From assembly GCA_018902385.1 (NCBI GenBank), contig JABSSW010000073.1, forward strand, positions 1-64,000: DNA of 64,000 nucleotides, given 5' to 3'. Position numbers and translations under genes: made by a program. This document shows positions 1-34,200 of the stretch, in pieces. The notes under the pieces were generated by a model, which was given only the letters and a program-made list of their open reading frames with translations, was not told the origin of the DNA and searched no databases. Position 1 is the first letter of the stretch. Each line of letters begins with the position of its first letter. The DNA is from Physcia stellaris. Lineage: Eukaryota > Ascomycota > Lecanoromycetes > Caliciales > Physciaceae.

Positions 1-212
1 AAAATTTGTCAATTTATTATACAAAATGCTCGATGTTTTTTGCATTCATTTGAAATTTTTTGTCGAGATTTTTTTTTTCATTTTCATATTTTTTCGTTTT
101 TTTTCGATTTTTTTTTTTGTTTTCGCATTCGTTTCGATCATTTTCGTTGTAAAAATGAATTGTATTAACGTTTATCAACAAATCATTTCGATCATTAATC
201 GTGTCAATATTG

Positions 213-255
213 AATTAATCGTTTCGAAACGAAATTGAAAAAAAACGAAAAATAA
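213..255 (+). repeat. 43-bp direct repeat, copy 1
   Basis: A 43-base segment starting AATTAATCGTTTCGAAACG and ending in CGAAAAATAA recurs identically at 2239-2281. Exact identity inside heavily mutated DNA suggests a recent duplication or a terminal or subterminal repeat of one element enclosing the zinc-finger ORF. Confidence 0.85.
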
Positions 256-299
256 AATGTTCGAATATTCAATCACGAAACATTTTCATGAAAAATGTT

Positions 300-665
300 T
301 TGCATACACGTTTTATTGAATGAATCGTACACATCGATTATCGCATACGTTCAAATATCGATACGTTAATCGTTGTTACGTCGATTTTGTTAATACAATG
401 AAATTGTTTGTTTCATGATATAATCGATTTAAAATTTTCAAAAATTTTCAAAAATGTTGACACGTTATTTGTTTACTAATAATCGTCGAAACTATTCGTA
501 AAAAATTGTATGAATTGATCATTTTTCAAAAAATTTATTACATTTATGTTTTGTTGAATGCAATGTACACATCAATTTTCGCATATGCGTAAATATCAAT
601 CATTAAACGTTGTTGCGAAATCTTTATCAACATAACGAAATTGTTCGTTTTATCGTAAAATTCGT
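300..665 (+). repeat. Degenerate tandem repeat, about 240-bp period
   Basis: The segment at about 300-420 is similar to 540-660: both carry a TTTTGTTGAATG/TTTTATTGAATG start, GTACACATC, CGCATA, and a shared run ending near AAATTGTTYGTTT. The copies differ by many substitutions, consistent with repeat-internal tandem duplication before or during decay. Confidence 0.6.
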
Positions 666-1250
666 CTGATGTTGCAAAAATTCAACGTTTATTTTTATAT
701 TATTCTAGATTTTTAAATTCAATCGAAATATGTTTTCGTACATGTTTCATCATAATCGCAAATAAGACATCGAATTGAGCATTGAAATTCGTCGATCAAA
801 TTTCAATATTTGAATCATCAACGAATTTCAATATTTCATTTCGTACATTTATTTTCGATTTTATTTATTCATTATTTTACATTCTCGTCGAAATACGCGA
901 ATTTTAAATAAAATTTTTTTTCATTTCATTACGTCATCGAAAAACGACTGTATCAAAAATTCTGTTACAACATCAAATTTTTGTTCAATATCGAAATCAT
1001 TTTGTTTGTTCGAATGAATTTTTTGCAATATTTTCAACAAATTCAACATCAATATCGAAAATCAAATGTGTTCGATTTATTGTTCAAATGCGTTCGAAAT
1101 TTTGTTTTCGCATAATTCAATAATCAATCAAATTTTATTATTATACAAAATTTCGACAAAGATTTAACATGTGCATTTTCGATTTTCATTGAATTCGTAT
1201 CGAAAACATTAAATCAATCATTTATTACATTTATTTTTATTTCAAATTTT

Positions 1251-2222
1251 TTGTCGCAATATCATTCGTGCGTTGAATGTTTCGTTCATTTTTCGTCAAT
1301 GAATCGTTTGTTACAACATATTCAATTTCATTGTACGAATTCGCAAGTTATTTGCAAACATTGCGATGCAAATTTCAATTTCAAAAACAAATTTCACGAA
1401 CACATACGCGAACATCATGTTCAGAATTTTGTCATTTCGATTGTCATATCAAAGAATTCGAATTTTCGAATTTTCACATCAAAATTCACGTACAAAATCA
1501 TGAAAAAATCAACAATCGTTTGTTCGTTTGTTTCGTTTGTTTCGTCGATTTTCGTTGCAACATTTATATCGATATTTGAATCAATATCATCAAAATGTTC
1601 GCATTTTTTTATTGCGACATTCAATATCACATCGAAATCGATGAAAAAATTATCAATCAATTCATTTACATTTACGATTTTATTTTCTCGAACATCTGTA
1701 CGAAAACATCAAAAATTTCACATTCAGAAATTTTATTTCATTATCGATGATTTGATTCGCAAATTTCGTGAAAAATTTAAATCATTTGATTTACATTTGC
1801 ATCAAAAACGTCGTTTTTTTTTACGAAATTTTGACATTTTTTTCAATCACGAATTATCGTTTATTTCATGTTTGCAATCAATCAAAAAATATCGATTAAT
1901 CAAATTTCGAAAAGTTCAAAATCGAAAATTTCGAAACAATACATGTTCGCGAAATCGATTCGCATTGCTTTCAACAAGAATTTTTTTGAAAAATCGATCA
2001 TTTTATCATACAAAAAGTCAAACATTTTTTACATTTGATTGCAATCAAAATTTTCATTCGCATGATTTCGATTTACGTTTTCGTTTACGTTTTCGTCGTT
2101 TTTTCGATTTTCGATTTCAAATCACGTTTGTTGCATTTGTTTCGATCATTTCAATTTTCGCAATAATTCGTTCAATTATTCACGTTTTAATTAACGATAT
2201 TTTTCGAATCGTCGATCGATGA
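1251..2222 (+). pseudogene. C2H2 zinc-finger transposon ORF remnant
   Basis: A 323-codon reading frame lies inside the AT-rich island. Near its start are two C2H2-like fingers: CVECFVHF...HIQFH and CKHCDANF...HIREHH (residues about 7-55). Further on comes KFYFIIDDLIRKFREKFKSF (about 163-182), which is repeated in the inverted copy at 4101-4990. The remainder is rich in F, S, I, K and R, as expected from mutated codons. The frame probably derives from a transposable-element protein of unknown class. The call uses an internal start that is not a standard ATG context and the ORF has no supporting promoter, so I treat it as a relic rather than an expressed gene. It may stay open because CAA and CAG codons are not converted to stops by the mutation pattern here. 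Confidence 0.55.
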
Positions 2223-2238
2223 AAAAAATGAAAAAAAT

Positions 2239-2281
2239 AATTAATCGTTTCGAAACGAAATTGAAAAAAAACGAAAAATAA
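2239..2281 (+). repeat. 43-bp direct repeat, copy 2
   Basis: Identical to 213-255. It lies directly after the stop codon of the zinc-finger ORF at 2222. Confidence 0.85.
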
Positions 2282-2644
2282 TGTGACGAACGTGCATCGA
2301 ATTCAACATTTGACAAAATTAATATTTTTATTTTATCACATCGAATGACAAAATCGAAATTCGTTTATGATCAAATTTTTTACATATGTTTTTGCAAATT
2401 TTCATGTATTTGCTTTTCATTTCGATATTTTCGTGTAATTATGTATTAATATCATATCAATGCATGACATTTCACAGAATTTTCGATATTATTGATTATT
2501 TGAATAATATTCATTTTGTGTTTCAAAACGAATTTTCGATTATATGTTTTATTTATTGAATGCAAATGTTATTAAAATACGAAATCGATAAAATCGCAAA
2601 TCGAATGCGAAATTATTTCGCAATTTTTATTGAAAAAAAATCAT

Positions 2645-2820
2645 AAATGATTATCATTTTATTGTTTTGAATTTCGTTATTTTTGTAACATACATGCAAA
2701 TAAAATACAAAAAATGTGCGAATATCAAAACGTTAAATTTCATTAATCGATTTATATCAATGAATTTTGATTGCAATATTTGTCAAACACATTTGCGAAA
2801 ATTGTATTTTTAACATTTTT
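2645..2820 (+). repeat. Dispersed repeat, copy 1 (partner 5846-6040)
   Basis: This about 175-bp segment is closely similar to 5846-6030 in the same orientation. Shared landmarks include ATGATTATCATTTTATTG, GTAACATACATGCA and the block ending TTGCGAAAATTGTATTTT. The translation around TTTGATTGCAAYATYTGT reads FDCNIC, so it may derive from a zinc-binding coding segment. Confidence 0.75.
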
Positions 2821-3555
2821 TCACAACAATCGTTTGTGTTTTTTGTTTTGTATTTTAACGAATTCAATTTGAAATTTTCGTGCAAACTTTTTCAACGCGA
2901 CGAATTTTGAAACTTTTCAACGATGCGTTGTTTGAAATTTTCGAACAAATTTTTTCAACGTGATATGACGTAAATTTTAACGATAAATCATGTATCGATG
3001 CGAAAATTGCAAAATCGAACGAATCGAAATTCGATGATTTATTGATTTCAAATATGACGTAAAATCGATTTGTAAAACGTGCGATCGAACATTTGAAAAA
3101 TTGCGACGTTTTGAATGTTTCGACGAAATGAAACATCGATGTAAAATTTGATATTTAAAATTGATTAAAAAATACATCATGAAACAAATATCAATTGTTT
3201 GAATTTTGCGATGACGAACGAGAATGCAAATCACATCATGTAACATCATTGTAAATTTCAAAATTTTCAGATATTTTTGCAACATCAATGAATCGATATT
3301 TATACGATTTGATTATAACAAATTCATGAAATATGTCAAATATGTAAAACAAACAAAAAATGATCGAAAAATCGATAAGAAAAATAATCGTCGAGTGTGC
3401 GACAAATTTTGCGAACATACATCGATGCAAAAATGCAAATTCGAATTTTTCTGATTTAATTAAAATGTGTCAAAAAATCAAATCGATTAATATGCGAAAA
3501 AATCAAATATTTTCAGTTTTTTTGTTCGAGTTTTTGCTTTGCAAAATCGAAATGT

Positions 3556-3735
3556 AATAATTGCATAATACGTTTTTTCGAAACTGTATTGTCGAGTATG
3601 TAATGATTGCATAATACGTTTTTTCGAAACGATATTATGTGATTTCATCGAATTTCGAATGTGTAATTGTTTTTTTCTAACAATCGTGCGTACAGTATGT
3701 CAATACGTTTTTTCGAAATTGTATTGACAAATTGC
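3556..3735 (+). repeat. 43-bp tandem repeat
   Basis: TAATAATTGCATAATACG and the following GTTTTTTCGAAAC are repeated at about 3558 and again at about 3601, a 43-bp period. A third partial copy (AATACGTTTTTTCGAAAT) is at about 3702. Noncoding. Confidence 0.7.
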
Positions 3736-4100
3736 ATTGTCATTTTTCTTTTTCGTATTTATCGAACGATTAAGTCTCAAAAATAATAAAGAAAAAAAAA
3801 AATAATTAGTCGTGTTAAATCAAAACGAAATCACAAAAATAAATTTTTATTATAGTGAAATAAAACAAAACATACAACAATTTTTAAAGTTTTTTCAAAT
3901 CACAAAACGAAAAAAACGAAATATCGAATTCATTAAAACAACAACAATTTTTAATCTTTTCAGATCGATCAACGATTCATAAAAAAACGAACGAACAAAC
4001 AAACAACATGCTAATTCTCTCGAAATAATGATTTTTTCGAAGAAAAATCAATATTCTTTCAAACTAAGACGAGAAAAAACGAAATTTCAATAACGCTGTC

Positions 4101-4990
4101 TCATGAATATTTCATTGTTTTCAATTTTTGAAACATTTGACGTAACTCAATCAATAAATCAATAAATGACAAAACGTTTTTGATAATGTTTGCAAACAAA
4201 AAATGAACGCGAAAATGTCGAAAAAAAAAACGCATCGAAACAAATCGAAAAAAAAAAAATCGAAAATCATCGCGAAATCGAAAATTGACGCGAAATGAAT
4301 TCGCGAACATGTGTTGATTTAAATGTTTCGAATTCGATCGATTTCGAAACAAATAAAATCGTCGCATGAAAATATAACGTAATACGATTTTGTATGAAAT
4401 CACATTTGTTTTTGAAATTGCATTTGTCGAAATTGCGCGAAAACAACGATTTGTTTTGACGTGTTTGCAAATCAAATGAATTCGATTTTTCAACGAACAT
4501 GCGAAACAAATCGTTCACGATGAAATAAAATTTCGATGATGTAAAAATTCGAAACGAAATAAACGAACAAACAATGTTTGCATTTTTCAACGATTTGCAC
4601 ATCGATTTGAATGTCGCAATCGAAAAACGAAAAAATTTCGACGCAACAAATCGTGAGACGATTTTTGTTCAAAATATCGATTTTTTTGATGTTTCAATCG
4701 ACAAAAAAAAAATTTGAAAAAATAAAAATAATTGATGATTCGATTATTAATTTCGACGACGTAAACGATGAAAAAATTATCGATTGAAAAAATGAAACAA
4801 ACGATTTTGAAATTTGCGCAAAAAACGAAACAATTGATTTCGATTTTTTGACGTGACGAATACGAATATGTTCGTGAAATTTAATGTTGTTATCGAATTT
4901 GATCGAATGTTTGCAACGTTTGCACGTATATTTTTCAATTCGTTTCGTTGTTATTCGAATTTTTTTTTTTTGTTTCGTCAATTGTTTCAT
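4101..4990 (-). pseudogene. Second zinc-finger transposon ORF relic, inverted
   Basis: On the minus strand the frames at 4694-4990, 4267-4602 and 4101-4493 together resemble the product of 1251-2222. They contain a finger-like CKRCKHSIKF...HEHIRIRHV, then KFYFIVNDLFRMFVEKSNSF, the same block as KFYFIIDDLIRKF in the plus-strand copy. The coding sequence changes frame at least twice, so it is a broken copy. The two copies are in opposite orientation, about 2 kb apart, which makes part of this island an inverted duplication. Confidence 0.55.
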
Positions 4991-5277
4991 TTTTTTTTTT
5001 GAGTTTGTTTTTGATTTTCAATTCATATTTTCGTAAATGATAATTTTTTGTGCTTTTTTCGTTTGAATGAATCAATTGCATTTCGAAACATTATTTAGAC
5101 TTGAATTTGTATGTTCGTGATACAACGAACGAAAATTTTGCGTTATTTTTGAATTATTCGCATCGAAACAAATGCAAAAAAGAAATGATCAAAAAAAAAT
5201 AACGAATGCGAATTCGAAAATGAACGATGCGAAACTCGCAAAAAATATAAATTTCGCAAAAATAAAAATAATAATAA

Positions 5278-5590
5278 ATGCATTTTTTGAATGTTTGCAT
5301 ACGATTTCTGATGCACGAATCGAAAAAAACGAAAATTCTAATGACGAAAATGAAAAAATTATCGATTGAAACGATGAAACAATCGAAATAAAAAATGAAA
5401 TCACATGTTCAACAGATTGTTGAACAAATTTCGATTTCGATGATACGTTTTCTGAACGTTCGCGTACAATTTCTGATACAAAAATCGAAAAAGTTAATAA
5501 TTTTGATGAAAATGACATGTTCGTCAAATCGAATGCAAATGTTGAAATCGTCAATCTGATTAAATAATAAATAGACGAATTCGTGAAAAA
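5278..5590 (+). repeat. Degenerate tandem repeat, about 165-bp period
   Basis: The block at about 5283-5350 (TTTTTTGAATGTTTGCATAC...ATTTCTGATGCACGAATCGA) recurs in diverged form at about 5448-5515 (GTTTTCTGAACGTTCGCGTA...ATTTCTGATACAAAAATCGA). Both continue into an AATTYTRATGAMGAAAATGA block. Confidence 0.6.
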
Positions 5591-5845
5591 TTCGTAAATA
5601 AATGTTATCAACGTAATTGAAAACATACTGAATAATATTGATTTGTATTAAAATATTGAATATTGTTCGATTGCAATTGAATCGTTTTGATTTAATTTGA
5701 TTGAATATTTTCAATAAAATTGATTATTGTTGAAATATTGCAAATTGATTGTTGTATTGTTCGACGATTAAATATTACGTGTTCATGTTATAATTGATAT
5801 TAAATGTAACGAAAATTGTTAATTCGATTTTCATAATTTATTGAA

Positions 5846-6040
5846 AAAATCATGAATGATTATCATTTTATTGTTTTGAATTTCGTTATTTTTGTAACAT
5901 ACATGCAGATGAAACACAAAAAATGTGCGAATGTCAAAACGTTAATTTCAATTGATCGATTTATACAAATGAATTTTGATTGCAACATCTGTCGAACACA
6001 TTTGCGAAAATTGTATTTTCAACAATTTTATCAAATTTAA
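5846..6040 (+). repeat. Dispersed repeat, copy 2 (partner 2645-2820)
   Basis: Direct-orientation partner of 2645-2820. The short open frame 5852-6040 includes FDCNICRTHLRKLYFQ, with an adjacent CxxC pair. It is interpreted as relic coding sequence of a transposable element, not a gene. Confidence 0.7.
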
Positions 6041-6254
6041 ATTTAATTTTAAAAATTTTTGACAAAGTTTTTTTTTAAAAAATTTTCGAATCTATAAAAT
6101 TTTTCTATAATAAAATATTTTGTAAATTCGTTTAACGCGAATGATCGATCGAAAAAATTCTGATCAATATTGAAAACGTATTTTTAAATTCGATAATTTT
6201 CATCAATTGAAAATTCAAATTTTCAAAAAAAAATCTAGAAATGAATATCAAAAC

Positions 6255-6700
6255 AATTTTCGTAATGTACAATTGTTTCGCAATTTGCACATCAATCAAT
6301 AATTACATATAATTTTCATTTATTTAGTCAAAATTCTAAAACAACATAAACGCATTTCAAAATTGCAAAAACAACAAAAATTCGTTCATTATCGCAATAA
6401 TTTTGAAATTTCGAAAATTTTATAATTGTCAAATGTGTGTCAAATCGCAATTGAAATAATTGCGAAAAAATTTCGTTCATTTTTTCGTCGTTCGTACAAT
6501 TGTTTCGCAATTTGCATATCAATCGTCAATCACATATGATTTTCATTTTAATATTCAAAATTGTAAAATTAAATGAACGCATTTCAACGTTTCAAAAATT
6601 ATTGAAATCGATTCGTTATCGCAATAATTTTGAAATTTTCAAAATTATATCGTTAAACGTTTTATTTTTGAAAATTTCATTTTTTCAAATGTTTGCAACG
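6255..6700 (+). repeat. Tandem repeat, about 240-bp period
   Basis: The unit at 6262-6420 (GTACAATTGTTTCGCAATTT, then TATCGCAATAATTTTGAAAT) is repeated at about 6495-6640. A further dispersed pair, 2475-2580 and 6735-6860, shares TTTCGATATTATTGATTATT and ATGTTTTATTTATT. Confidence 0.7.
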
Positions 6701-7024
6701 TTTTGATGCGATTTCGATTATAATTCAATGCGCATTCGATCGATTTTCGATATTATTGATTATTTGAATAAAATTCATTTCGAATTTCAAAACGAATTTT
6801 TGTTTGTATGTTTTATTTATTAAATGCAAATGTTATCAAGATGCGAAATCGTTAAAATCGTAAAACAATTTCGAAATATCGATTTTTGCAATCTTATCAG
6901 ATTTAAATTTAATTTTGAAATTTGACATGAAATTTTTTTGAAAAAATTCACGAACAAACTTGTTTGTTTTATAATAACAAAATCGAATTGTCGAAATTTC
7001 GAACAACAATAATAAAAAAAAATT

Positions 7025-7380
7025 GATAATAATATTTTGCGTTTGTTGTTTGTTTTTATTTAAAATAATATTTAAAAAAAAATCGTATATCGTTGATTTC
7101 AAAATTGAAAAACGATAATTGAATCGATTTGATTTCAAATATTTTTCATCGTACGTCAAAAATAATTTTTAAACAAAAACAAAAAAACATTATATACGAA
7201 ATTGATTGTAATACAATAAAATTCAAAATATTTGTTACAAAAAATATTTTCGTTTAATGTATGTTTTTTTTTGAAAATAATATTTTCAAATATAATCGTA
7301 TCGCGTTGATTTCAAAATCGATAAATTGTAATCGAATCGATTTAATTTTAAACATTTTGCATTGTACGTTAATTATATAA
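7025..7380 (+). repeat. Tandem repeat, about 225-bp period
   Basis: The segment 7035-7165 is similar to 7260-7375. Shared landmarks are AAATAATATTT, TCGTATMKCGTTGATTTCAA, ATCGAATCGATTTRATTT and TTTTYATYGTACGT. It forms the right-hand end of the island. Confidence 0.65.
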
Positions 7381-7865
7381 TATTGACGAAATCAACAAAA
7401 TATTGATTGTTAAATCAATAATATTGCGATAAAAATGAAAATGTTTGTTACGAAAAATGAAACGACGACATTATTACAACATAATTTGTTTACGCGATTT
7501 CATTTTCGCGATTACACGTGTCAAAATTAATCAATAAAAATCGAATTTCTATTGATTATATTATAACGTGAAACGTTAAACGTCACGCGCGATTTGCATT
7601 TTCAGATTTCGAAACTGTCAATCTGCAAATAGAATTATCGATTTCAAAATCGAAAGCGAATGACGAAATTTTGATTTAGAAAACGTGCAATGATCGTGAG
7701 AACGAGATATGAAGAATGTAACGCGATTCACGATCAAAGAACATACGAGAGTACGAAGAGCGACATCGAATGCTGCATAGAGAGATGTATCGTTCACGTC
7801 AGATCATATTTGTTCTATCAATTTCTTCCGTTCTCAGCTGATACAGTCTCTAGATCCGCGATCCC

Positions 7866-8490
7866 CTACAGAGCCCAAACAAGTAGTAGAGCTAGTCCTC
7901 CGACACAAACACTGCTCACCAAGCCAATCATCCCCTTTACTTTCCCAGCTCCTCCCGTAAAAGGTACTATGCCTCCAGATGAGCCATTCCCTGCAGAAGG
8001 CGCAGGTGTAGCCGTAGGCCCGACCAGTGCTGAGGTATTGGCTCTGAAGGCGAAGCCCGGAATGGCCACACCACAGACGCCAAGGGCGAAAGCATTGGTA
8101 ACTAGATGTCGCGAGGTCACTATCAGCTTCCTGACTTTGGGCTGAATGGAACGGAGAGCTAGTGGATGTATGTACTTTCTTGATCAACGATGCCGCAATT
8201 CGTCTGCTCGCAGGTGTCGAAGATACGCGCGTACACTGGGTCTGTGCAGACGCAAGTCAAGTTGGTAGGGGTGCAGATACTGCCATCAATGGCTTGTTGT
8301 TGGCATGCTACCTGATGCTTGGTTAGATATGAGGAAGACAATGGGAAAGGGGGTGTCTGACAGCGCAGGGAGGGAGAGGGTTTGGAGGAAGAGTGAACGT
8401 TGTGGCCTTTGCTGTTATCGTAGCGGAGTTCAGTGTCTGTGCCTTGCTCAACACGGCAAGAGCCAGGAGGGTGTTGAGTGCGAATAGCAT
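7866..8490 (-). CDS. CFEM-domain GPI-anchored surface protein
   Basis: The predicted 166-residue protein is secreted and probably anchored in the fungal cell wall or plasma membrane, where CFEM proteins are known to bind haem or act in surface interactions. Three exons fit in phase: 8362-8490, 8176-8311 and 7866-8101, with introns of 50 and 74 bases. The chosen ATG at 8490 gives a signal peptide (MLFALNTLLALAVLS). The CFEM core follows: LPPC, then AC three residues on, SIC, LTC immediately followed by VC, a TDPVY segment, DTC and EQTNC, with a final cysteine in exon 3. The C-terminus has a Ser/Gly/Pro-rich stretch, a small-residue region suited to GPI cleavage, and a hydrophobic tail ending VGGLALLLVWAL. 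It lies within 200 bp of AT-rich island 1. Confidence 0.82.
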
Positions 8491-9353
8491 GATTGGTCGG
8501 TGGCAAACCCAAGAGAAGGATACTATGAAAGGTAATGGTAGATGGAATGGGAGAAAGTTGCAGCTCTTATATGCTCCAGGGCGGTATCAAGATGCACTGC
8601 ACGATCTCGTCATTGCAACGTGTAGCAGCGGCAATGAGACTAGCATCGAACCACTGAATAATTAAAGCAGTATTCTCAATGACACATATTGTATGCATTA
8701 GCGCAGGCGAGGCTCAACACCGAGATTCTCCGGTCAACCCTCGTCCTTTGATTGACGCATGCGGAAATTTGAAAATCTATCGCTCCGTCTGACGGTAAGT
8801 TCTGAGATGACTCCGCTGATGAAGAAGTCGTGCACAACAAAGCAGCTGAGACACTCCAGACTTTGACATTGTTTGGGACGGCGGCGCAAATGAACGACCC
8901 ATCAACAGCGTTGCGAGTCGCATCGGAACAGTACACTTTTCGATCCCTCACAGTACACATCAGCCACCGTCACAAACGCGTAGACGGCCCTTTACCGACT
9001 TCATAATCATGATGGTGTGAGTCGTATTTGATGACCTCACATGGGCGAGATCCCTCATTTACTGCTTCAGTAGATTCGAAACGTGTTAGCGCCGAACATC
9101 CTGATTAGCGCCCCAATAGGAGATTTACGAATACGAGTTTCCAGATTCGTAAGCTGGTACGTAAGCTTGTAAAATGGGCCAATGTATATAAATCTCCTGA
9201 TAGATCTGTTAATTAAATCAAGTCGTTGGCATTTTTCATGTATTATGCGCTGAAATAGGGTGATTATTATGTATTGGCACCTGAATTGTATGGTTATGGT
9301 GTCTCGCAGTTCTCCACGAATTTTAATATGAGAGTATGACGACTCTCTGCACT

Positions 9354-9377
9354 GCACCGTATCATTCGGTACGGTGC
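9354..9377. repeat. Perfect 8-bp-arm hairpin
   Basis: GCACCGTA at 9354-9361 and its reverse complement TACGGTGC at 9370-9377 are separated by an 8-base loop. There is no run of T after it and no adjacent gene, so no function is assigned. Confidence 0.6.
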
Positions 9378-9499
9378 AAGAAATGGACCGCGTACGCATC
9401 ATTCGGGGTCAAAACCGTTGTGCACCGATAGTTCAGTGGTTTGGTGCACCATTGGGCGCCTTGAAACTTAGTCTGCTGACCTGGATCCTCCCTACAGCA

Positions 9500-9545
9500 C
9501 AGTTCATGGTGGCTGGCCAACCACCAGCTGAGCTGCACCCTCGCC
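9500..9545 (+). repeat. Dispersed copy of the 47-bp repeat family
   Basis: CAGTTCATGGTGGCTGGCCA followed by ACCACCAGCTGAGCTGCACC matches the tandem units at 21,054-21,240 and the copy near 21,390. Weaker similarity to 21,490-21,760 extends downstream (GACTGCATCTGC and ATGCTCTRGAG landmarks). Confidence 0.6.
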
Positions 9546-11316
9546 ACGCCCCCACCGCAAGATACACAAGAGGTCTAATCCACATATAATTGGCTTCACG
9601 TCTGGACAAAATCCAGCTAGGCCTAAAGGCATGACTTATCAATGTGCAGCTGTCCGTGACTTGCGGGTCCAGCCTCGAGTCCTTGGACTGCATCTGCCCG
9701 ATTCAGTCGTCTGGTGAGCACTGAGGTTGAAATTTTAGAGCGGGTATGCACAGAGTCTCTGAGATCAGCGTTGCTCAATTCGCTTACCTTGAAGCTGGTA
9801 GCAGCAGTGGAACAGGTGAAGGCGTGCAGGAATCCTTGGCAGACATATGTAGATGACTAAAGAAACCATGCTATGAGAATCCGATCATGTATGAAACGAT
9901 GTACGCAGTACGTATGCTCTAGAGAATGATTACTGAAGTACAGACATCCTAACAAGTACGATGATCTGATCGATTTTATTTCACCTTATTCTCCCGGAGT
10001 CAAATGCAGTAGTGTCGTCACAATCTCTTCGGGGTAAATGGCTTCATCGATCAAGGCATTTGCTTTGAAAGCATGGAGAGTGTCGAGTCCGCCAAGCCTA
10101 CCATGCTGCCCAAAGTCGTCTTCATGATCGATTGGATCTTCTGTATGCTTTGAGGAAGATTTGCTAGACCTGTCATTTCCACCAATGTTTTTGACATCTT
10201 TCACCTAATGGGGTTTCGATTCAGTGCCTACGCAAAGATCACGTCAAATACTCCAGAGATTCCTTCTCGCATCTTGCACAGAAACCAGCCAGGTCAGGTG
10301 GTTTTTACAACAGCTGGGCGCCTCTGCGCGGTCTTAATCGCCTCACTATTGTCTAAGTAATGGCGCTCTGGTCATGGGCTCTCACTTCGTCTTGGCCATC
10401 ATAAATGCAGAATGGAAGCAATCATACGCGGCCGCCGAAGGCACATTAATACATGTGTACGGTCCTCAATCTGAGTAATAGCACTGAATCTTGTAGCTCG
10501 TACAGCACTGAACGACTTGAGCGCTGGCAAGAAACGGGGGATTAAGAGAGCTAGGTTTGGTAGCTGGTTGAGTAATACTGTGTAAAGTGTGCCTCTGAGT
10601 TGCCATCGACGTATTCGAAGCACTGATAGTCGGCAACGTCTAAATAATCATCACAATCGTGAACGCAAACAACTAGCCAGAGCCGGTCACCATATAACTG
10701 CAGTACCAGAACAGAGCTTTATCATTTCAGAGCACAATTGAAGGACATGATCTCAGGGTATTAATATGTAACCGAGCTCATGGATTCTTCGTATACACTT
10801 TCAGTACCAGATGATAAGGTACCTGTGGTATCTCTATTTCAGGAAGGATCATCGTTCCTTGGTAGCTAGGACTAAGTCAGGCTATGGAGAGACTTGCATT
10901 GTTCAATCCTCCTTGGACGGTCAGAATGGGGACCTCATAGTCTCGAGCAGGCCTGTTGTTCAGGCTAGCAATCAGGTAATCCTTATCCCCTTCACCATGT
11001 ATCAAGTTAGTAGATAGCATTCTGATCAAATCGGCTCTACGTACCAAGACCGAGAAAGAAACCTCCAAGTCCGTGCCTTGCGCAAACCGAGTATATAGCT
11101 ACCATAGCTTCTGATGAAGCGTCCAAGTCAGTATTAACACCGCTTGGGAAAGAACATTCCGAGTCGAGAACGGCCGGGGAAGAAAAAACACCCTCCAGGA
11201 GACTTGCCCCATATTTCGTACCAAGTGCTCGTATCTGATGTTCCCTTTGTTAGGATGCGAGCGACGCAATTGTTGCCACCTGGCATCCATGCATTAGCTC
11301 TCCGATATCCTGCGAC

Positions 11317-13720: not shown

Positions 13721-13721
13721 T

Positions 13722-24515: not shown

Positions 24516-26390
24516 ATGGAACCAAAGAAAGATGGGAAACCATTTCTGCTGGATTTCCGCTCATCCAAATGGCTGATAGCCATCACCGTGTACTGCGCAA
24601 CATTTACAGTAAGCTATCGGATACATCTCCAGTAGGTTCGCTGATCATATCTCTTAGGATGGCTTTATCTACGGGATTGTGAGATACAACGCTGCTACTC
24701 AGCATGTGTCATGATCTAAGGACTCCTCCAGATTGTTCCAGTAACGCCATTCGTTCTTGTAAACAAGATGGGTGTTCCTGAGAACGAAGGTACGAATATA
24801 CGTTCTATTCTTCCTCTCTCGGCTCGTCTTTGGGCTAACGTCGTGTCTCAGTTCAGTTTTGGTCCTCTACCATGCTAGCAGTCTTCGGAGGTAGCAGTCT
24901 GATTATCTCTCGTAGGTCTTCTACCTTACACAAGGTGAATACAGCTGCTGAATGTTCTTTGAAAGCTTTCATTGGATGGTTCGCCGACCGTAGCTCATCC
25001 CGCCAGGTACCATTCTTGTTAGGGCTTCTCCTAGCATTTGCAGCAACGCTTCTGTACACATTCGGAAAGAACCCCGCAACGCTGGTTGCAGGTCGTTGCA
25101 TTCAGGGCTGCTCGGTAGCCACCGTCTTCACGGTCGGATTGGCTCAACTGGTCGATAGTGTGGAGCGCAAAGAGTTGGGCCAATGGATTGGTTTCGTGTT
25201 GTCCGGTATGAATATGGGCGTTATGATCTCGCCATTTCTTGGGGGCTTGGTCTACGACAAAGCGGGATATTATCCGGTCTGTGCAATGGGGCTGAGTGTC
25301 ATCGCCTTTAACTTCTTATTGCGTCTGCTTGTTGTCGAACGCAAGCAGGCTCAGAGATATCCAGGAACAGCCTCACAAGAGGAATCATCCAGCGCAGAAT
25401 ACGGTACTTTTCGAGATTCCAGTACCACCACCAAGCAATGCATAGACCAGGACGAAACCTCCGAATCTCAAAATGGCGAAGGCAACAATGACTACAGTGG
25501 CTCTAAACACGACTCCGATATGAATGCCGGGGCGAGGGAAGAAGATAATCTTTTGCCCTATCGACAAGCTACCACTCCGCCGTCAAATGGTGCTTCAGGG
25601 ACCGCTTCTGGCCTAACCAAGTATTTCCCCGTCGTAGGTCTTCTCCTTACATCACCCAAGGTTTGGACTGCGCTGTACGGAGCTCTGTTGCATTTGAGTA
25701 TTATCACCGCCTTTGATGGTGTACTTCCTCTGTTTGCCAAAGAAACCTTTGGATGGAGTTCAACGGGCATCGGTCTCATCTTTCTTGCAATAACTCTGCC
25801 ATCGCTGCTTGGAGGTGTATTTGGTATGCTATCTGATCGCTTCGGGCCTCGGCTGTTGACCCTTTTTGGTTTTGCTGTCTCTGTACCAGCCCTTGGATTC
25901 CTAGCACTTGTCAGGGATGATCAGATCGGCCATATCGTCCTTCTTTGTGGGTTGCTTGTATTGACCGGTACCAACTCCATGTTCCAGTATCCGACTTGCA
26001 CTAATGGTGGCAGGAACTGGATTGAACATGTTACTGGCGCCTCTTGCGTCCGAAATGAGCTTTGTAGTCGACGATTATGCCGGAGAATTTCCGGGAGCCA
26101 TGGGAAGCTCAAAGGCCTACGCACAAACTTATTCGCTCTTCAATTGTGCATTGGCTGGAGGACAATTTATCGGACCGGCATTATCTGGCCTCATTTACCA
26201 CAAGACAAATTGGGGTATTACTATGGGCGTATTAGCGGCTTTCTGTGCCTCAGGAGCAATTCCTGTAGTACGTTGCCAACAAGTCTACGTCGAGCATTGC
26301 ATAAAAGCTAACGTTGTTTTAAAGGCGCTCTGCACAACTGGTCCACTGACTCCACGTTTTCGGAAATCTGAACCGGCATCTCCCGAGTAA
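24516..26390 (+). CDS. MFS transporter, DHA1-like (intact)
   Basis: A twelve-helix plasma-membrane permease, likely exporting a small molecule. The ATG at 24,516 begins MEPKKDGKPF; later exons encode TVYCATFTDGFIYG, VTPFVLVNKMGVPENE, GWFADRSSSRQVPF (the loop 2-3 motif) and ATLVAGRCIQGCSVAT. A long charged central loop (about residues 200-285) is followed by FDGVLPLFAKETFGWSST, SDRFGPRLLTL and SSKAYAQTYSLFNCA. Introns fit in phase, including GTAGGTCTT...TTGAAAG near 24,914-24,969, GTACCAAC...GGTGGCAG near 25,969-26,012 and a last one ending TTTTAAAG before the exon that stops at 26,390. The truncated paralogue at 12,797-13,720 is its closest relative in the window. It is divergent from the P450 and upstream of the decarboxylase, which suggests product export or self-protection. 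Confidence 0.87.
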
Positions 26391-27617
26391 ACTGATTACC
26401 AATTTTAATTGGTCGTGGCCGTTGCAGATGATGTTCTGGACATCTAAATCGGCATCTTCCCAGCTTTGGGGCACCATGTGAATATCGAAGACTGGCAGAT
26501 TCAGCTGGCTTAAATATCCACATGATGCCAGTTGTTGAGTCGTAGGTTTGTGTTGAAGCCGATACGGAGTTCGATGGAGGGTTCTTTTCTCGACCTTTGA
26601 ACCATTATTGTGTTTGTAGCACGTTGGATCGTTATTGGAGTTATCATAGAGATTGGATATATCTCAAATGCTATGTTCAACCTGATTGTTTAGTAATCGA
26701 TAGATTAGCTGTCAAAGCATTATCATAGAGGTAGGATCAACCATGGCCATCTCAGGTATGGTCTGATATTGGTCAACGTTCGCCACTTTCGTCAGCAAGC
26801 CTGCGGGCGAATTCCTAGATATTCTTCATGAGTCAGTGGGTACATTCGACAGACTACATATGATTCTGGATATCTACAGTCGGCTATTGACTGAGTTCGT
26901 CACATTGCATACACCATTACCCGAGTGCTTAGCGAGATTTAAGCATATGTAATGCAGCAGAGTGGCGCACGCCGCAAAGTAGACTTGTACTCATGGGGGA
27001 ATACGGGCCCATGCCGAGTGACTCCAAAGTGATGGTCGTGCTGCGTAGAAGCGATTGGTGTGAATGGAACGCCAGAGATCCGCGGTCGACCGATGGGCTA
27101 GTGTATGCAGACGGGCTAGAGTATGCAGGTCCCTGGATCTTGCTGACTTTTCTATATCGCTGCACATATGAGGAATGTGAATTTGCCAGTGTAACTGCGG
27201 ACGGGTGACCGACAGGCCACTGTCGGCAAGTCATTTTTTGGGACTCTGGGCCGCCCAGAACAAGCAAATACTACCAAAGCTTGGGCACTCCTCACAGCGG
27301 TGTCTGACCCCTGTCGAATTCTCAGCTCTCCACGTACTTCGCATAAGACGCCATGGTTCTAGTCCGATGGACGATCTATCGATACGCATTGCATCGTCAG
27401 GAACACTTGATCTTCCTTTGCGGTCAGTATCTTTGGAAAGGCAGCTAGCTCGCACCATCTGCCCCCTCTTTGGCACAATGGACGGCAGCTGCCGACCTGG
27501 CTATGGACCTGGGCGTTATTTGGTCTATCCCACATTAATGGGATATATATAGACAGTCTGCCATCAAGAAAGTGGACAATGTCAACATCGTGCTACTCGA
27601 CGGACTGATCCCAAACA
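26391..27617. other. Intergenic interval
   Basis: No gene is supported. A short direct repeat flanks the transporter stop (CCGGCATCTCCCGAG near 26,373 and TCGGCATCTTCCCA near 26,449). A TATATATA box at 27,544-27,551 lies 67-74 bases before the decarboxylase ATG. Confidence 0.5.
27544..27551 (+). promoter_or_regulatory. TATA box of the decarboxylase gene
   Basis: TATATATA in GGGATATATATAGACAG, about 70 bases upstream of the proposed ATG at 27,618. Confidence 0.5.
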
Positions 27618-29460
27618 ATGGACGCGGAACAATTCAAACAAGCCATACAGCTTGCAGGGAACGACAGCTAGTCTACCGAGACCTGGAGACCTGGTATACG
27701 GCTGACATGTGAACAGTTACTGACTACCTCGACACTATCAGCTCCCGACGCGTTCAAGCCGAAGTCTCGCCCGGCTATCTCAAACGCATCCTACCTACAC
27801 ACGCACCAAACGATGGACAAACCTGGAATGAGATCCGTCAAGATTTATTTTCGAAAATTATGCCAGGGATGACCCACTGGTAAACTTTCGCTGCGCCTTT
27901 GTTGCTTCGCCTACCTAACACCATCCGCAGGAATTCTCCCAATTTCATGGCCTTCTTTCCAGCCCCAACCTCTTACCCAAGCATGCTGGGCGAGTTGTAC
28001 TCAGCTGCATTAACGACTGCGGCCTTCAATTGGGAGTGTGCACCAGCGGTAACTGAACTGGAAACTACAGTGCTGGATTGGTATGCACAGATGTTGAATC
28101 TGCCTGACTACTACCGTTCGACATCCACAGGTGGAGGAGTTATTCAGGGTACGACATCGGAGGCAGTCGTTGCCGTGATGGTGGCCGCACGAGAGCGGTA
28201 CCTGCGCCAGGTTATCCCAGATTTAGATACGATGAAGCCGATAGATCGGGAGGATGCGATGGCGAGGCGACGGGCAAATTTGGTTGCAATCGGTAGCGAG
28301 GCGTGTCACAGCTGCACGCAGAAAGCAGCGTCAATAACTGGCGTGCGATACCGGTCTGTGCCTGTGAGCATCGAAGACGCTTTTAGCATGCGAGGACAGA
28401 TGCTCCAGCAGACCATAGCAAATTGTCGCAAAGAGGGTCTGGAGCCTTTCTATTTGACAGCAACTCTTGGCAGTACAGCGACATGTGCGGTTGACCGATT
28501 CGAGGAGATCGCTGCAGTCCTTGGAAACGAGCCTAATATATGGGTTCATGTCGATGCCGCCTTTGCAGGCAATGCGTTGGTGTGTGAGGAGTACCAACAT
28601 CTCACGAAGTCTTTTGGCTCCTTTGACAGCTTTAGCACGGCGCTATCCAAATGGCTTCTGATCAATCTGGACGCATGGTCAGTTACTGACACCGAGTTTC
28701 CTTTTGTCGTCTTTTGTATACTAAGCTAACAGACGACTCTAGTTGTCTCTTTATCAAGAAGCGCGAGCACCTGACCCAGGCGCTCTCCATCAATCCGGCA
28801 TACCTACGAAACCCATCCTCGGATTCTGGTGCAGTCATTGACTATCGCGATTGGCAAATATCACTGTCCAGACGCTTCCGGGCACTCAAGATATGGTTCG
28901 TTATGCGTACTTATGGGGTAAACGGTTTCAAGAAATATATCCGACAGCACGTCAGACTTGGCGAGGGCTTTGCTAAGATGATTGCTTCCAAGCCCCACCT
29001 CTTCCAGATAATAACGCCGCCAGCATTCGCCTTGACTGTTCTCAGTGTGAGACCGGAGAACAGTGACCGCGAAGAGGCCAACAGGCTAACTCAAGCGGTG
29101 TATGAGTCGATCAACCAGGCGAATGAGATCATGTTAACAAGCACCGTTATTGGGGGATATTTTGTCATACGAGTAGTTGGCGCGAATCCAAAGACCGATG
29201 CAAAGGCTTTGCAAAAAGCCTTTGACGCTCTGGTCTTCACAGCAGAACAGACGCTGTGGGGGCTTCGAACTATCGCTAAAGAGTTGCGTACAGAATCCAA
29301 TTCCGACGGAGAGATGGTAAATTACGAAGTAGTCGAAGATGTTGGGAGTGGAGGTGATGGCAAAGAGATGGAGTGGAGCCAAATTCCAGCTGTACGGCGG
29401 AGTATTCGAGGCAACTTTTCCCTGTGGAGTATGGTATCGAACTGGTTGTTTAATAGATAG
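27618..29460 (+). CDS. PLP-dependent aromatic-L-amino-acid decarboxylase-like
   Basis: Group II PLP decarboxylases remove CO2 from tryptophan, tyrosine or DOPA-like amino acids to give arylalkylamines. The family order is complete: DYLDTISSRRV, PGYLKRILPTHAP, the active-site start IMPGMTHW then NSPNFMAFFPAPTSYPSMLG, GGGVIQGTTSEAVVAV, the PLP-stacking histidine in ACHSCTQKA, ATLGSTATCAVD, the aspartate in VHVDAAFAGNALVCEEY, and the lysine in STALSKWLLINLDA. After a phase-fitting intron (28,678-28,741) come LFIKKREHLTQ, DYRDWQISLSRRFRALKIWF and RTYGVNGFKKYIRQHVRLG. The usual PHK or AHK around the PLP lysine is LSK here. The region between the ATG and the DYLDTI exon does not splice cleanly with a GT donor; a GC donor after GACA would restore phase. 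Substrate is inferred from family only. Confidence 0.87.
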
Positions 29461-30970
29461 ATATTCGTAGCACAGTATATAGCAACTGAACTTTTCCCTT
29501 GCTAGACTCAGACTTATCTGGCATTTCGAGAGCCCGAGCCTCCTCAATTACTTGCTGACTATTGTCAGAACCGATATTGGATTTGGAGTGAATGGTAGAC
29601 TATCAGTAGAAGTGGCACCAAATGACTTCCACAGATCTTAATAGTCTTGCTGCTAGTGCTCCAGTTCCCCCAGAACCCCTTCTCATACATCGTAATGATG
29701 ACGCAGAACCAGCCACGCATGCGTGATAGGAGTAACACGGTCTGAAACGTTGTCTTCCCAGTAGAGCAAACCGGACAAAACCTTCCTTGATCGTGGGCCA
29801 GGACCACACCAAACTCGAGTCCTACAAAAGTAAGGATTGTACAATTGGATATAGGCCTGGACAATGGTGCATACGCCAAACTTGAAGACGGGCTCCGCTC
29901 ATTTGCTTCTCACACTTGCGCCTTCTACGGCGACACAGAGCCCTTCAATCAATTATAGGGGCCGACACATGTCGCATGTTTACAGTTGCCCACAGTAGAA
30001 ATGGCGTATGTATAGTAGGAGGATTCTTCTATGTCGGGCTGTGGCAGGTTCGATATGGGAACAGTGTAATCGTAGCACTCGATATCGCTTTCCGTAGCAA
30101 CCATGAAGTCGAGGTCAACCGGGGTTTTAGGTCAATGAGGATACTTAAAGAAATAATGAGATCATTGAAACCATTGCGCACCTAAGGCCGAATGCCCAAA
30201 CTTAATGAATCACCGAAGACAGCCGAGTTGGTATCAGGAGAAAAGATCTTTAATTTAGTATTGCATTATTGACGATACATTAACTGATCTTTGCGACAAA
30301 TAAGGGCTATTTTCGTCGGGCTATTAGTGGTCCTCGCATCAGATGGGCATCATTTAGTGCACGATCTAGGCGATGGAACCCATCTAGTCGCTAACGGTGA
30401 GCACTGTAACCATCAATGTATCTGCAACAAACTTATCCGTCATGTCGAATACATGCTTTGGGGGCACCATGACTCGAATCTGGTGAATGGCCCGCCTCGT
30501 ATAAGCATTTACAGGAGACCCTTCCTTGAGCGGCCACGCGGTGATCTCCACCTCTTCCTGTAGTTTCCGGGCTTTTGAGCAAAGCACAATCAGGCTTGTT
30601 CGCTAAGGCACAGCGCAAGACCCTGCTGAAAGAGTATAAGGAAAGCCTTACGAGCTAGCTGCGTTGTACGGAGTAGGGGTGCCGCGGATTATAGTACGTA
30701 CAGAAGCGAACTCGTCGACCTGGGTCCTCGTGGTCCCGGCTATCACGTCGCGGGGTTGACACATGACAGCCACAGCTGCGACCATGGCTGCATATCAGCT
30801 TCCTGTTGGGTTCTTACTGCTTAGCCAATCGGACCACAGGGCATTGGGAAGCATTCCAGACTTACTTCAGACTGTAGATGACGACGCACCAGTACGTAAA
30901 GGAAAATGACGGAAGAGTATAACATCCATTTCGCTTATCTTTCCATGCTTGGAGAAAGCGACATTCCTTC
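29461..30970. other. Gene-poor interval left of the transposon
   Basis: No gene is supported. Short frames (29,565-29,879 minus, 30,384-30,587 minus) have no recognised domain or splice partner. Confidence 0.5.
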
Positions 30971-30979
30971 AACAGTATT
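30971..30979 (+). repeat. Target-site duplication, left
   Basis: AACAGTATT directly before the left terminal inverted repeat; identical to 34,295-34,303 directly after the right one. Confidence 0.9.
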
Positions 30980-31034
30980 CGGGATGTCTAGGGGGCGCGA
31001 GGTAGGACCGCAACGCGAGGTTCATTAGTAAGCA
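30980..31034 (+). repeat. Left terminal inverted repeat
   Basis: 55 bases; pairs with 34,240-34,294 at 51/55. Weaker similarity continues inward for roughly 30 more bases (CTAATTTTGGTGGGC against CGATTTTGCTGAGGC). Confidence 0.9.
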
Positions 31035-31125
31035 TCATCCCACCTAATTTTGGTGGGCGGCCCCATCTACATGAGCGGAGACATCGCTGGTCAACGATCT
31101 CGTCGTCGGCGCATCTCGTCGTCGT

Positions 31126-34100
31126 CATATTTTTGTATAAGATTCATGATGTTGAGAAACAAAAATTTCGTTTCGTTTATTTACATGTAATTTATGAATT
31201 CTAATTTACGATAAACGTCGAATTGACAATGCGTTTTTGCTGTGATTTTTTGTTTTCATTTTTTTCGCTTGCACGTTTCGTAGATCTGTTTTGTTTTTTT
31301 TTCGAGTAGGCTGTTTCGTCATGATTTCAAGCGTAACATTTCGTTGACGTCGAGATTTCGACTGATGCGATTTCGATTTTCATTTTTTGAATTCAATCAT
31401 TTTTTTTGTTTTGATCGTTTTCGAAAATGTAAATTTTCGCAAAAATGCAAAAAATGAAAAATTCGTAAAAAAAAATAACGATTGCGATTTCGAATCGTTT
31501 TTTTTATTTTTCGATTTTTCGCGTTTCGATGAATTGCTCGACGAAACGATAAAAACAAAAAAATTGAAAAAAACTTTCGAAATCGAATTTTTCGAATTTG
31601 AAACAATTATCGTTGACGACGATTTAAAGATTGATTTTACAACAAACGATGTTGAAAAAAAAAAATTTGTTAATCAAATCGTGTTTTTTGATTTTTTTTC
31701 AGTTGTTTCGATTGCGATAATCGTTTTTTTAATAATTTTGTCATGTTTTTTCAATATTCATAATTTCTTTTTGATTGAAAGCGATTTCGAAAATTTTATC
31801 GAAATTTTTGTTTTGATTTTAACGAAAATTTCGTGAATAAAAATGACGTTTTTCGTGAAAATTTCGATTTGATTAATTAAAACGTCACGAACTTTTTTGA
31901 ACAATCGTTCAAAAAAACTTGTTGATCGATCGTATTTCGAATGAATCGATTTTTGTTTTTGTTGTGATTGATGTTTTCGTTATCGAAATCGAAATTCATT
32001 GCATTATCGTAATAACGAGATTGTCGATCATGATGTTTGTTTCGAAATCGTCTAATTTTCAACGAAAATGTAACAAAATTACAAATATTGAAAAATTTTT
32101 CAAAATCGTTCGAAAATAATAATGAACGTGTTTGCAAAATAAATCGTAACGAACAACAAAAATGCAATTACATGATTTTGAAACGATTTTTTTCATTTGA
32201 ATTAATACGTTCAATCATTTCAACGATCGTCATTCGTTTCGAAATTTATCGTTTTCATGATTCATATAATAACACGATCAAGCAAAAATTGAAAAGTCAA
32301 AAATCGATTTCGTGAAATCGTTTGATGCGTGATTTCTTTTTCTTTTCGCGAATAAAACGATACATTTTTCGCAATTCAAATCGAATGTTTCGAAAAATCG
32401 TTTCGAATGACATTTGATCGTTGAATATGATTTTAACAACAAAATGCATGATTTATTGCGTTGAATAATATGAATTTCGAAATTAAACAACAAGACGACG
32501 TAACAATTGACAATCATGTATTTTTTGCGCGTTGATTGTTTTCGAAATAGTTTTTTTCGTCGAATTTCATGACGATTAATAACGTGATTCGATTGATAAT
32601 CAAATCGAAAACGATAAAATTTTCGATTCAAATTCAAATGAGATCGTGCAATTCATTTTTTGCGTTTTTGATGTATTTTTTCGCGTTTGTCATTTTGTTG
32701 TCAATTAGTCAAATTAAAATTGAATGTGATTTGAACACAACATTGAAAAAACGTGAAAAAAGAAAAAAAATTGAAAAAAAAAACGACGTATTTGATTTTG
32801 ATATTTTCATATGCATGAAATTGACAGAATTGACGATGTATTGCAAACATAATCACGTTTAACGACGTCAATATGTTTTTGTTTTGATCGATAATAATCA
32901 CACGAAAAAAATTGATGTTTTGAATTCACATTTCGTTTTTAGAAAAATCAAAAAAATCGTCGTAATTATTTCAGATTCGATTAAAGCAAAAGAAAAATAT
33001 CGAAAAATTCATATTGATGTTTGTGATTTTTATGTTCACGAAAAATAACATTTTCAATTTATTGATATTGAAAATAACGTCGAATTCGATAAAAAATTCG
33101 AACAAAAACGTCTGATTCATTTCAATTGTTGACTATTCATTTAATTGATTTGTTTCAAAATTCGCTTGATAAAAACATCGTTGACGTTTCGTTCGTATTC
33201 GTATCGAATGCGAATGATAAATGTCATCGAACTTTTCAAAAACGACAAATAAATTGATATGATTTCGCGTTGATTGCGAATGACAAAAAAAATGAAATTG
33301 TAATACTTTTTCGATCAATATGCAACATTTTATCGAAATTTCGTTCGATGTTGATCAACACGCAATCAAACTGCTCGTAAATGAAAATTGATCGATGAAT
33401 TTTAACGATATTTAAAATTTTGTTGTAATCAGATGATCGAAAACGATGAATTTCATAAAAAAATGAATTCGATTGCAAAAGATGAAAATGTTTCAATTGA
33501 TCTTTTTGCACGCAAAACATTCAAATTTTTGATTTTTCAAATTTTCGATCGATTCGTTTGTAATTGATGAACAATCGTCATTTACAATTCAGAATTCGAA
33601 TGTGAATCAATTCGCGTTGACGATTGATAAAATTTTCGATCGTGCTTTTATGTTCGTTCAACTTTTTGTTGTTTTGAGTTTCGATTGAATGATGTATGCA
33701 ATGATAATATTTACGAAAATTGTTTTTAAAATCGCAAAAACTCGTCACGACGACGAAATTCTGATTAAACGCGTAATTTTGAAATCGTTTAATAGTTTTT
33801 TTTGAAATTTCAAATTGTTCATCGTTTCGAAAAGATTTCAAATGAACGAAAAATATGAAATCAATGATTTTTTGTATTGTCGAAACAAAATTGAAATCGA
33901 AAACGAAATGAAAAATTCAAACGATCATGACGACGATGATATCGATTTGAAATGAAAACAACGAAATCAACAATTGCAACAATAAATTCCAAAAAAAAAA
34001 ATGATTTTGAATGTGTGAAATTCACTCACAAAAACGATGAATTAGTGAATCAATTCGAATTTTTTCAATTTTTTCAAACAATTGTTGCAAAGCGTTTATT

Positions 34101-34200
34101 TCTCAACATCAAAAATTTGATATATTCAAGTTTGATGAAGACGACGACGAGATGATATGCGCGTTGCGCAACATGTGTATGAAGAAGAAAAAATTTGAAT
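31126..34200. repeat. AT-rich island 2 (transposon interior)
   Basis: Composition switches abruptly at both sides. Sampled lines (32,041-32,100 and 32,461-32,520) show C almost only before A or G, as in island 1, with one CT and one AG seen. No intact gene. Confidence 0.88.
33133..33841 (-). pseudogene. FAR1-like segment of a MULE transposase, relic
   Basis: Reading leftward from 33,841, the frame to 33,578 includes KRFQNYAFNQNFVVVTS, then KYYHCIHHSIETQNNKKLNE and RQRELIHIRILNC. This spacing of CxxH/HH, a basic stretch and a final cysteine resembles the WRKY/FAR1-type N-terminal domain of fungal MULE transposases. The continuation is split between the frames 33,236-33,520 and 33,133-33,318, so it is frameshifted. 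The catalytic DDE region would lie further left but cannot be read through the mutations. Call from pattern memory; moderate certainty. Confidence 0.45.

Follow-up and report, generated by a model that had tools for sequence, protein, structure and literature searches.

Loss of cytosine before pyrimidines in repeats of the lichen-forming fungus Physcia stellaris, a probable RIP-type process with an inverted context preference

Two AT-rich islands in a 64-kb window

Physcia stellaris is a lichen-forming ascomycete (Lecanoromycetes, Caliciales, Physciaceae), and the stretch analysed here, called the window throughout, comprises bases 1-64,000 of contig C73 (JABSSW010000073.1) of its genome assembly (43.97 Mb, 147 contigs). 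It contains two AT-rich islands of repeat DNA in which cytosine is almost absent before C and T, and this loss is considered below in relation to repeat-induced point mutation (RIP), the genome defence process of many fungi. Island 1 (1-7,827, where the contig starts) is AT-rich repeat DNA mutated at CpC and CpT, and carries a mutated copy of a C2H2-zinc-finger open reading frame from a multi-copy family (1116-2222, + strand, a 368-aa stop-to-stop frame). Island 2 (31,109-34,200) is the mutated core of a Mutator-like element (MULE), a DNA transposon located in genic DNA at 30,978-34,296. The genic DNA between the islands (7,828-30,977) and after the transposon (34,297-64,000) is unmutated and serves as an internal control; no strand is assigned to islands, controls, or the MULE as a whole. 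Neither Rfam nor tRNA searches found anything in the window. The published genome was obtained from axenic ascospore cultures by nanopore and Illumina sequencing at ~30x each, and is described there as 46.57 Mb in 184 scaffolds (PMC7513301). Literature is cited here by PMC number, and each statement refers to the part of the source that was covered; in that part of the Physcia genome paper no RIP analysis was seen, its matches to "rip" being RiPP (ribosomally synthesized and post-translationally modified) peptides.

Positions 1-7,690 have a GC content of 25.0% and contain neither CpC nor GpG (for CpC, ~124 are expected under independence), with CpT and ApG reduced to 50 and 47 occurrences (observed/expected, o/e, 0.14 and 0.13) and CpG, CpA, and TpG standing at o/e 3.68, 1.33, and 1.29. 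Positions 31,126-34,200 are similar (GC 27.3%, one CpC, one GpG, o/e 0.20 for CpT, 0.22 for ApG, and 3.50 for CpG). The controls at 7,691-31,125 and 34,201-64,000 have GC fractions of 0.487 and 0.505, CpC o/e of 0.93 and 0.95, and CpT o/e of 1.04 and 1.07. The earliest CC/GG in the window is found at position 7,828, leaving island 1 with 0 CpC and 0 GpG over its whole length, and island 2 has CC/GG only at 31,309 and 33,989. Other long runs free of CC/GG (2,680, 212, and 201 bp) all fall within island 2, and the genic maximum is 143 bp. The border at 7,827/7,828 is abrupt: CC+GG per 200 bp pass from 0 and 0 to 32 and 22.

A preliminary description of this DNA, based on its letters, had counted 35 CpA, 17 CpG, 13 TpG, 3 ApG, and no CpC, CpT, or GpG in 1201-1500, and the recount is identical. 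Its CpG o/e for the same stretch also holds (2.98), but two other ratios needed small corrections, TpA/ApT to 13/41 (0.32) and (CpA+TpG)/(ApC+GpT) to 48/29 (1.66). Both islands that it delimited (1-7,690 and 31,126-34,200) are real, with extents now refined to those given above. It had further stated that standard RIP indices would score this DNA as unaffected, which agrees with the values over islands 1 and 2 for TpA/ApT (0.44 and 0.34) and for the second index (1.48 and 1.40).

The MULE is recognized from its terminal inverted repeats, a transposase domain, and a second copy on contig C82. The inverted repeats (57 bp, 53/57 identical) are located at 30,978-31,034 (+ strand) and 34,240-34,296 (- strand), and both are unmutated, with CC/GG kept. 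The transposase domain (PF10551, 32,803-33,090, - strand) contains two in-frame stops, both TGA, and scores just below the Pfam cut-off when TGA is read as W. The MULE has the sequence CAGTA immediately outside each of its ends (30,978 and 34,296), possibly as a 5-bp target-site duplication; 5 bp is short for such a duplication in this type of element. Mutation has spared the outermost 131 bases of the transposon on the left (30,978-31,108) and 96 on the right (34,201-34,296), both inverted repeats included. Across the left end, CC+GG per 200 bp run from 20 to 22 (in 131 bp) to 0, and across the right end from 0 to 11 (in 96 bp) to 21, and the genic flanks are normal from the first 200-bp bins on. 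The copy on C82, the sole other DNA-level copy found, can be aligned from 31,811 on, up to the right end of the element (93% and 88% identity), and in it CC/GG are back ~113 bases inside the end of the copy. In this transposon, the one with ends found, mutation ends just inside the repeat border. The loss is bounded by the repeat, with its core inside the MULE and the single-copy flanks spared, in one element whose left 0.7 kb is unmatched on C82.

Island-type DNA also occurs elsewhere in the genome. The stretch 1201-1500 has 43 genome matches, itself included, and 17 loci from 16 other contigs, picked by similarity to island 1, were compared with the window. All of them (17/17) contain stretches with island-type CpC/CpT loss; two (L017, L018) are half-mutated in part, and four (L020, L021, L026, L032) continue into DNA of normal composition, which was also found in two stretches chosen regardless of repeats. 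When the window and the fetched loci are divided into 572 bins of 500 bp and sorted by GC, CpC falls from 64.6 at GC 0.50-0.55 to 13.8, 1.4, and 0.1 at GC 0.35-0.40, 0.30-0.35, and 0.20-0.25, and CpT over the same bins from 66.4 to 45.7, 28.7, and 6.0. CpA and CpG are 68.0 and 60.9 in the first of these classes and 58.8 and 50.8 in the last. The loss along this series is a single path, with CpC going first, CpT second, and CpA and CpG changing little. By arithmetic, rather than by a scan, the affected share of the genome would be about one quarter, taking GC as 43.3% overall (PMC7513301), ~49% for genes, and 25% for islands. A half-mutated stretch on another contig (C100:21,001-22,500, L036) has 118 GG and 43 CC on its + strand, which could mean that mutation was heavier on one strand, and its starting composition could also differ.

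Context of the mutations in aligned copies

The context of the loss was determined from copies of the zinc-finger element. L017 and L018, on contigs C100 (16,000-22,400) and C9 (496,200-501,500), are both half-mutated, and only columns with an identical 3' neighbor in both copies were used when the window copy was compared with each of them. Relative to L017, the window copy has lost C at 14/14 CpC, 140/151 CpT, 28/256 CpA, and 13/221 CpG sites, and relative to L018 at 24/24, 140/148, 29/253, and 14/228. Between L017 and L018 themselves, 5,312 aligned columns contain 522 substitutions, made up of 507 transitions and 15 transversions. The C-to-T changes in the two directions amount to 117/165 and 37/74 at CpC, 217/553 and 106/455 at CpT, 5/707 and 6/705 at CpA, and 6/582 and 7/584 at CpG, that is, in sum, 154/239 (64%), 323/1008 (32%), 11/1412 (0.8%), and 13/1166 (1.1%). 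The order of targets is CpC > CpT >> CpG ~ CpA, and the ~1% at CpA and CpG is close to the rate of other changes. C before a pyrimidine (CpY) accounts for 477 of the 501 C-to-T differences, as expected from the earlier proposal of a repeat-directed C-to-T process at CpC/CpT, which is refined here in that CpC is hit well before CpT. Decay of 5-methylcytosine of the CpG type is ruled out by the 13/1166 mutated CpG and a CpG o/e of 3.7, and methylation induced premeiotically (MIP), which methylates without mutating, does not fit the substitutions present in the assembly.

Each of the two copies has losses absent from the other (337 private to L018, 144 to L017), and they have therefore been hit independently. 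CpY transitions between them number 481, against 15 transversions, and C-to-T change in these copies has been faster than ordinary divergence. Rapid C-to-T mutation on both strands at C before a pyrimidine is thus seen in the repeats of the copies examined. Strand-wise runs of mutations were looked for in single copies, and no clear ones were found (z 1.1 and -2.1). The base that governs the process is the 3' one (chi2 1,207); within CpC, CpCpA is the most mutated CpCpN (33/38 and 12/16). The 5' base shows a modest association over all C (chi2 16.9, p=0.0007), which is gone within CpC (p=0.30) or CpT (p=0.47).

This pattern bears on the different mutator that the preliminary description had offered as an alternative, which stays conceivable, and in particular on the possibility that the repeats are mutated by a cytidine deaminase of the AID/APOBEC type, unrelated to RIP. 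Such enzymes read the 5' base. C-to-T change on both strands and the modest 5' association are what a deaminase could produce, and a search of the genome with PF00383, the zinc-dependent deaminase family, gives 8 matches. That family also includes household deaminases. Set against this are the decisive 3' base, the 5' base without detectable effect inside CpC or CpT, and a genome search, made without a positive control, that gave no APOBEC_N match, and a deaminase is regarded as very improbable. The best cytidine/deoxycytidylate deaminase match (C64:178,666-179,121) contains four in-frame TGA, which could reflect read-through of an intron or a mutated copy.

Intact copies of the zinc-finger element provide the starting state. 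Four are available (L039-L042; the first three at C46:382,867-384,363, C20:169,801-171,222, and C42:257,471-258,895), with GC of 0.48-0.51 and CpC/CpT counts near those of CpA/CpG. Aligned with 18 island copies, they show C-to-T change at 2768/3144 CpC (88%) and 2119/2916 CpT (73%), and at 374/3162 CpA and 221/2584 CpG; C>T (3116) and G>A (2378) dominate, the next commonest type reaching 192. The islands are a product of mutation, and ancestral composition is ruled out by these four copies, with their normal CpC/CpT, and by their alignment to the island copies. Two outcomes had been named beforehand as speaking against the CpC/CpT proposal, C-to-T change mainly at CpA and an intact element already deficient in CpC/CpT, and neither was seen in the comparisons above. 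An origin of the signal in ancestral composition, in collapse of homopolymers by nanopore sequencing, or in mis-assembly is barely conceivable: the assembly does combine nanopore and Illumina reads at ~30x each (PMC7513301), but intact copies are present in it, CpT is lost as well as CpC, and the losses are substitutions to T instead of deletions, by which, together with the intact copies, an assembly or homopolymer artefact is ruled out.

Stops and open frames in mutated elements

The zinc-finger frames belong to a Pro-rich family with at least 115 matches in the genome (86 of 445 candidates scored), a few of them intact and of normal composition and many mutated. Window positions 1,017-1,811 match residues 70-333 of an intact member (P0142, G7Y79_00046g082750) with 50% identity, and the 323-aa product read from the first start codon of the 1116-2222 frame (P0121) contains no Gly, Pro, or Trp. 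Searches of the zinc-finger proteins against Pfam and NCBIfam gave no match above cut-off, only sub-threshold ones or none. Across the family, 99% of 889 Pro and 99% of 303 Gly codons are changed, TGG has become TGA in 17/22 cases and TAA in 4/22, and Gln codons have become stops in 17/370. Counted by codon, the contrast expected of CpY mutation is thus seen in this family as well, although its stops are mixed.

If only CpY is hit, TGG (to TGA) is the sole sense codon that can be converted to a stop. Saturating four intact frames at CpY in silico gives a GC of 0.25 and 2-5 stops per frame, TGA only, and saturating the same frames at CpA gives a GC of 0.38-0.40 and 30-40 stops. The GC observed is 0.250 in island 1 and 0.273 in island 2. 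In a genome-wide search with four transposon families, the in-frame stops comprise 328 TGA, 39 TAA, and 3 TAG (328/370 TGA), distributed as 250, 33, and 3 in RVT_1 (best 150 of 527 candidates), 44, 3, and 0 in DDE_1 (10 matches), 15, 1, and 0 in the MULE (11 matches), and 19, 2, and 0 in hAT (13 matches). The CpY spectrum predicts both the GC of the islands and the TGA excess in these four families. The repeats affected are the zinc-finger element and the MULE, as seen by alignment, and reverse-transcriptase, DDE_1, and hAT elements, as seen from the spectrum of stops.

The 368-aa frame of island 1 is open because CpY saturation yields few stops. Among 65 relatives of this frame in databases, 57 lack Gly and 45 lack both Gly and Pro, which also argues against an assembly artefact, with the reservation that 63/65 sit on ENA contigs and are possibly not independent of this culture. 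More generally, DNA mutated at CpY retains long open frames without Gly, Pro, and Trp, and such proteins are already present in databases.

Candidate enzymes, related systems, and meaning

A search of the genome with PF00145 gave four matches corresponding to three cytosine methyltransferase genes (on C5, C6, and C3), all in DNA of normal composition; homologues of both RID and DIM-2, which the preliminary description had recommended looking for, are among them. The C5 gene is RID-like, with the motifs LSPPCQFFSDAHT, SPPCQ, LEQTSG, GVPQRRMR, and QIGNAVPP in a 935-aa frame after one splice. It is deposited as a Physcia stellaris protein (P0001), in a model that differs near the N-terminus from the frame spliced here, and the residues conserved without exception in an alignment of 14 RID sequences that contains P0001 include P702, P703, C704, E743, Q784, R786, and R788. 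By its motifs, a RID (class-I, Dnmt1-like) homologue is present and apparently intact. A second class-I enzyme, of DmtA type, is encoded at C6:790,900-792,560 (515-aa frame after two splices; PPCQ, EETFG, QIGNAVPP); its relatives (120 listed of 2,824) include several proteins that carry the name DmtA, from Aspergillus, Histoplasma, and Blastomyces, as well as proteins of Heterodermia, Teloschistes, and a Caloplaca-like lichen. The C3 gene, with a 1,118-aa open frame, appears DIM-2-like, a name given from its motifs SPCQGFS and ENVLG and from the length of the part preceding them.

The explanation preferred here, with a probability of about 0.8, is genome defence of the RIP type with an inverted preference for the 3' base and RID as its likely machinery. 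Duplicated DNA would be recognized as paired repeats before meiosis, its cytosines would undergo methyltransferase-dependent conversion to T, and the RID encoded on C5 would most likely be the enzyme, preferring a pyrimidine at +1 in place of the +1 adenine of Neurospora. As to the enzyme, roughly half of the weight is placed on RID, a quarter on DIM-2, and a fifth on the DmtA-type protein.

DIM-2 could act in either of two ways, by methylating heterochromatic repeats at CpY, with slow deamination of 5-methylcytosine leaving a scar, or as a DIM-2 branch of RIP. In addition to the DIM-2-like gene with its motifs, Neurospora DIM-2 is described as methylating mainly outside CG with CpT preferred (2026 review, PMC13297926), and in Colletotrichum truncatum, where the authors found DIM-2 but no RID homologue, several families are CpT-biased (PMC6180176). 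The first target in Physcia is CpC, not CpT. The 481 CpY transitions against 15 transversions between L017 and L018 represent a ~hundredfold per-site excess, a speed that weighs against a slowly formed scar, and the border at one transposon, the MULE, is abrupt. A premeiotic DIM-2 branch of RIP is compatible with the speed, the border, and the CpC-first points, and DIM-2 in its two roles together is considered rather unlikely. The mutator could also be the DmtA-type paralogue, with a CpY preference, instead of RID. Its frame is intact with the expected motifs, and its relatives occur in other lichen fungi, but this gene is found in many fungi without a CpC-first signature having been found, in literature only partly covered, and in crosses of Neurospora the shift induced by RIP depends on Rid1 (PMC12543289); this alternative seems unlikely.

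Several observations weigh against RIP with a pure CpY preference. A preference for CpA, by which RIP is usually recognized, was looked for and not found. In 22 of the 572 bins GC is <0.20, below CpY saturation, and only in these bins are CpA and CpG clearly lowered too. Relative to the intact copies, CpA has become T in 11.8% of cases, with 21% in L032 and 24% in L027 as the highest values, against a background of likewise high ordinary divergence. The zinc-finger family, being poor in Trp, shows a mixture of stops (26 TGA, 22 TAA, 2 TAG), 16 of the TAA derive from CAA/CAG, and many TAA occur among the matches listed in a genome search with the zinc-finger protein; these stops tell against pure CpY mutation over long times. 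To these are added the 5' association over all C, the left part of island 2 (31,109-31,810) without a match in the C82 copy, and the sample of island DNA, non-random because the loci were picked by similarity to island 1.

Known RIP systems resemble the process in Physcia in part. RIP of Neurospora crassa and other Pezizomycotina shares with it C-to-T change on both strands in repeats, homologues of RID and DIM-2, and AT-rich islands among normal genes. In Neurospora the order is CpA>CpT>CpG>CpC (PMC5496416), nearly the reverse of that in Physcia, where moreover TpA/ApT falls instead of rising and stops are few, mostly TGA from Trp. In Trichoderma reesei experiments gave CpA~CpG, then CpT, and CpC last (PMC5496416); preference therefore differs between species, and the order in this fungus is opposite to that in Physcia. 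In Botrytis, Sclerotinia, and Magnaporthe, CpT is either the main context or a secondary one, always with CpA (PMC4352252), and it occurs together with CpA in Anisogramma (PMC10998396). It has been called the dominant context of Neurospora Tad1 (PMC2621366) and that of control fungi capable of RIP (PMC7882544), and is dominant in some families of Colletotrichum truncatum (PMC6180176). Physcia shares with these fungi the use of CpT, but CpA is used there too, whereas in Physcia it is nearly spared and CpC comes first; in Anisogramma and most C. truncatum families the repeat-family indices also fall on the RIP side, unlike in Physcia (PMC10998396; PMC6180176). Hypermutation in Basidiomycota (Microbotryum, Pucciniales, Rhizoctonia) likewise consists of C-to-T change in a non-CpA context, but its authors read a CpG bias (PMC4352252; PMC4014442), and CpG in Physcia is spared. 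The Rhizoctonia table there gives CpC as the densest class of single-nucleotide polymorphisms, at 214 bp vs 370 for CpG (PMC4352252; PMC4014442).

Other comparisons concern a crossed plant pathogen and two further lichen fungi. The plant pathogen is one that we take to be Zymoseptoria tritici. In its crosses, 240/242 events in the duplicated region were at CpA (PMC10294615). Endocarpon pusillum (Verrucariales), a lichen fungus, has ordinary RIP indices (PMC3897900). Cladonia rangiformis is like Physcia in its very AT-rich islands with sharp borders and its RID and DIM-2 homologues, and unlike it in that ripped regions peak at ~16% GC, a value lower than the 25% reached when CpY is saturated; RIP was assessed there by GC, and the words "CpA" and "dinucleotide" are absent from the main text as covered (PMC12542154). 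Since CpT contexts have already been reported, the use of CpT is not new. What appears new is CpC as the first target with CpA spared: no report of RIP that is CpC-first or CpA-sparing was found in the open-access literature, covered only in part.

The standard indices shift the wrong way in Physcia, and RIP maps based on them can be wrong. Pure CpY mutation disables proteins mainly through loss of Pro and Gly, with TGG to TGA as the only route to a stop; the long open frames that remain are spurious, and gene finders will call them. With Physcia as a natural contrast, the features of RID, DmtA, or DIM-2 that read the base following C could be sought. Tentatively, and at somewhat less than even odds, a repeat-directed mutator with a +1 specificity opposite to that of Neurospora RIP, needing a pyrimidine and rejecting adenine, is proposed, acting through a DmtA-type enzyme or DIM-2, or through RID with switched recognition. 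If this is true, clades of lichen fungi that are scored as RIP-poor by CpA indices would be RIP-proficient.

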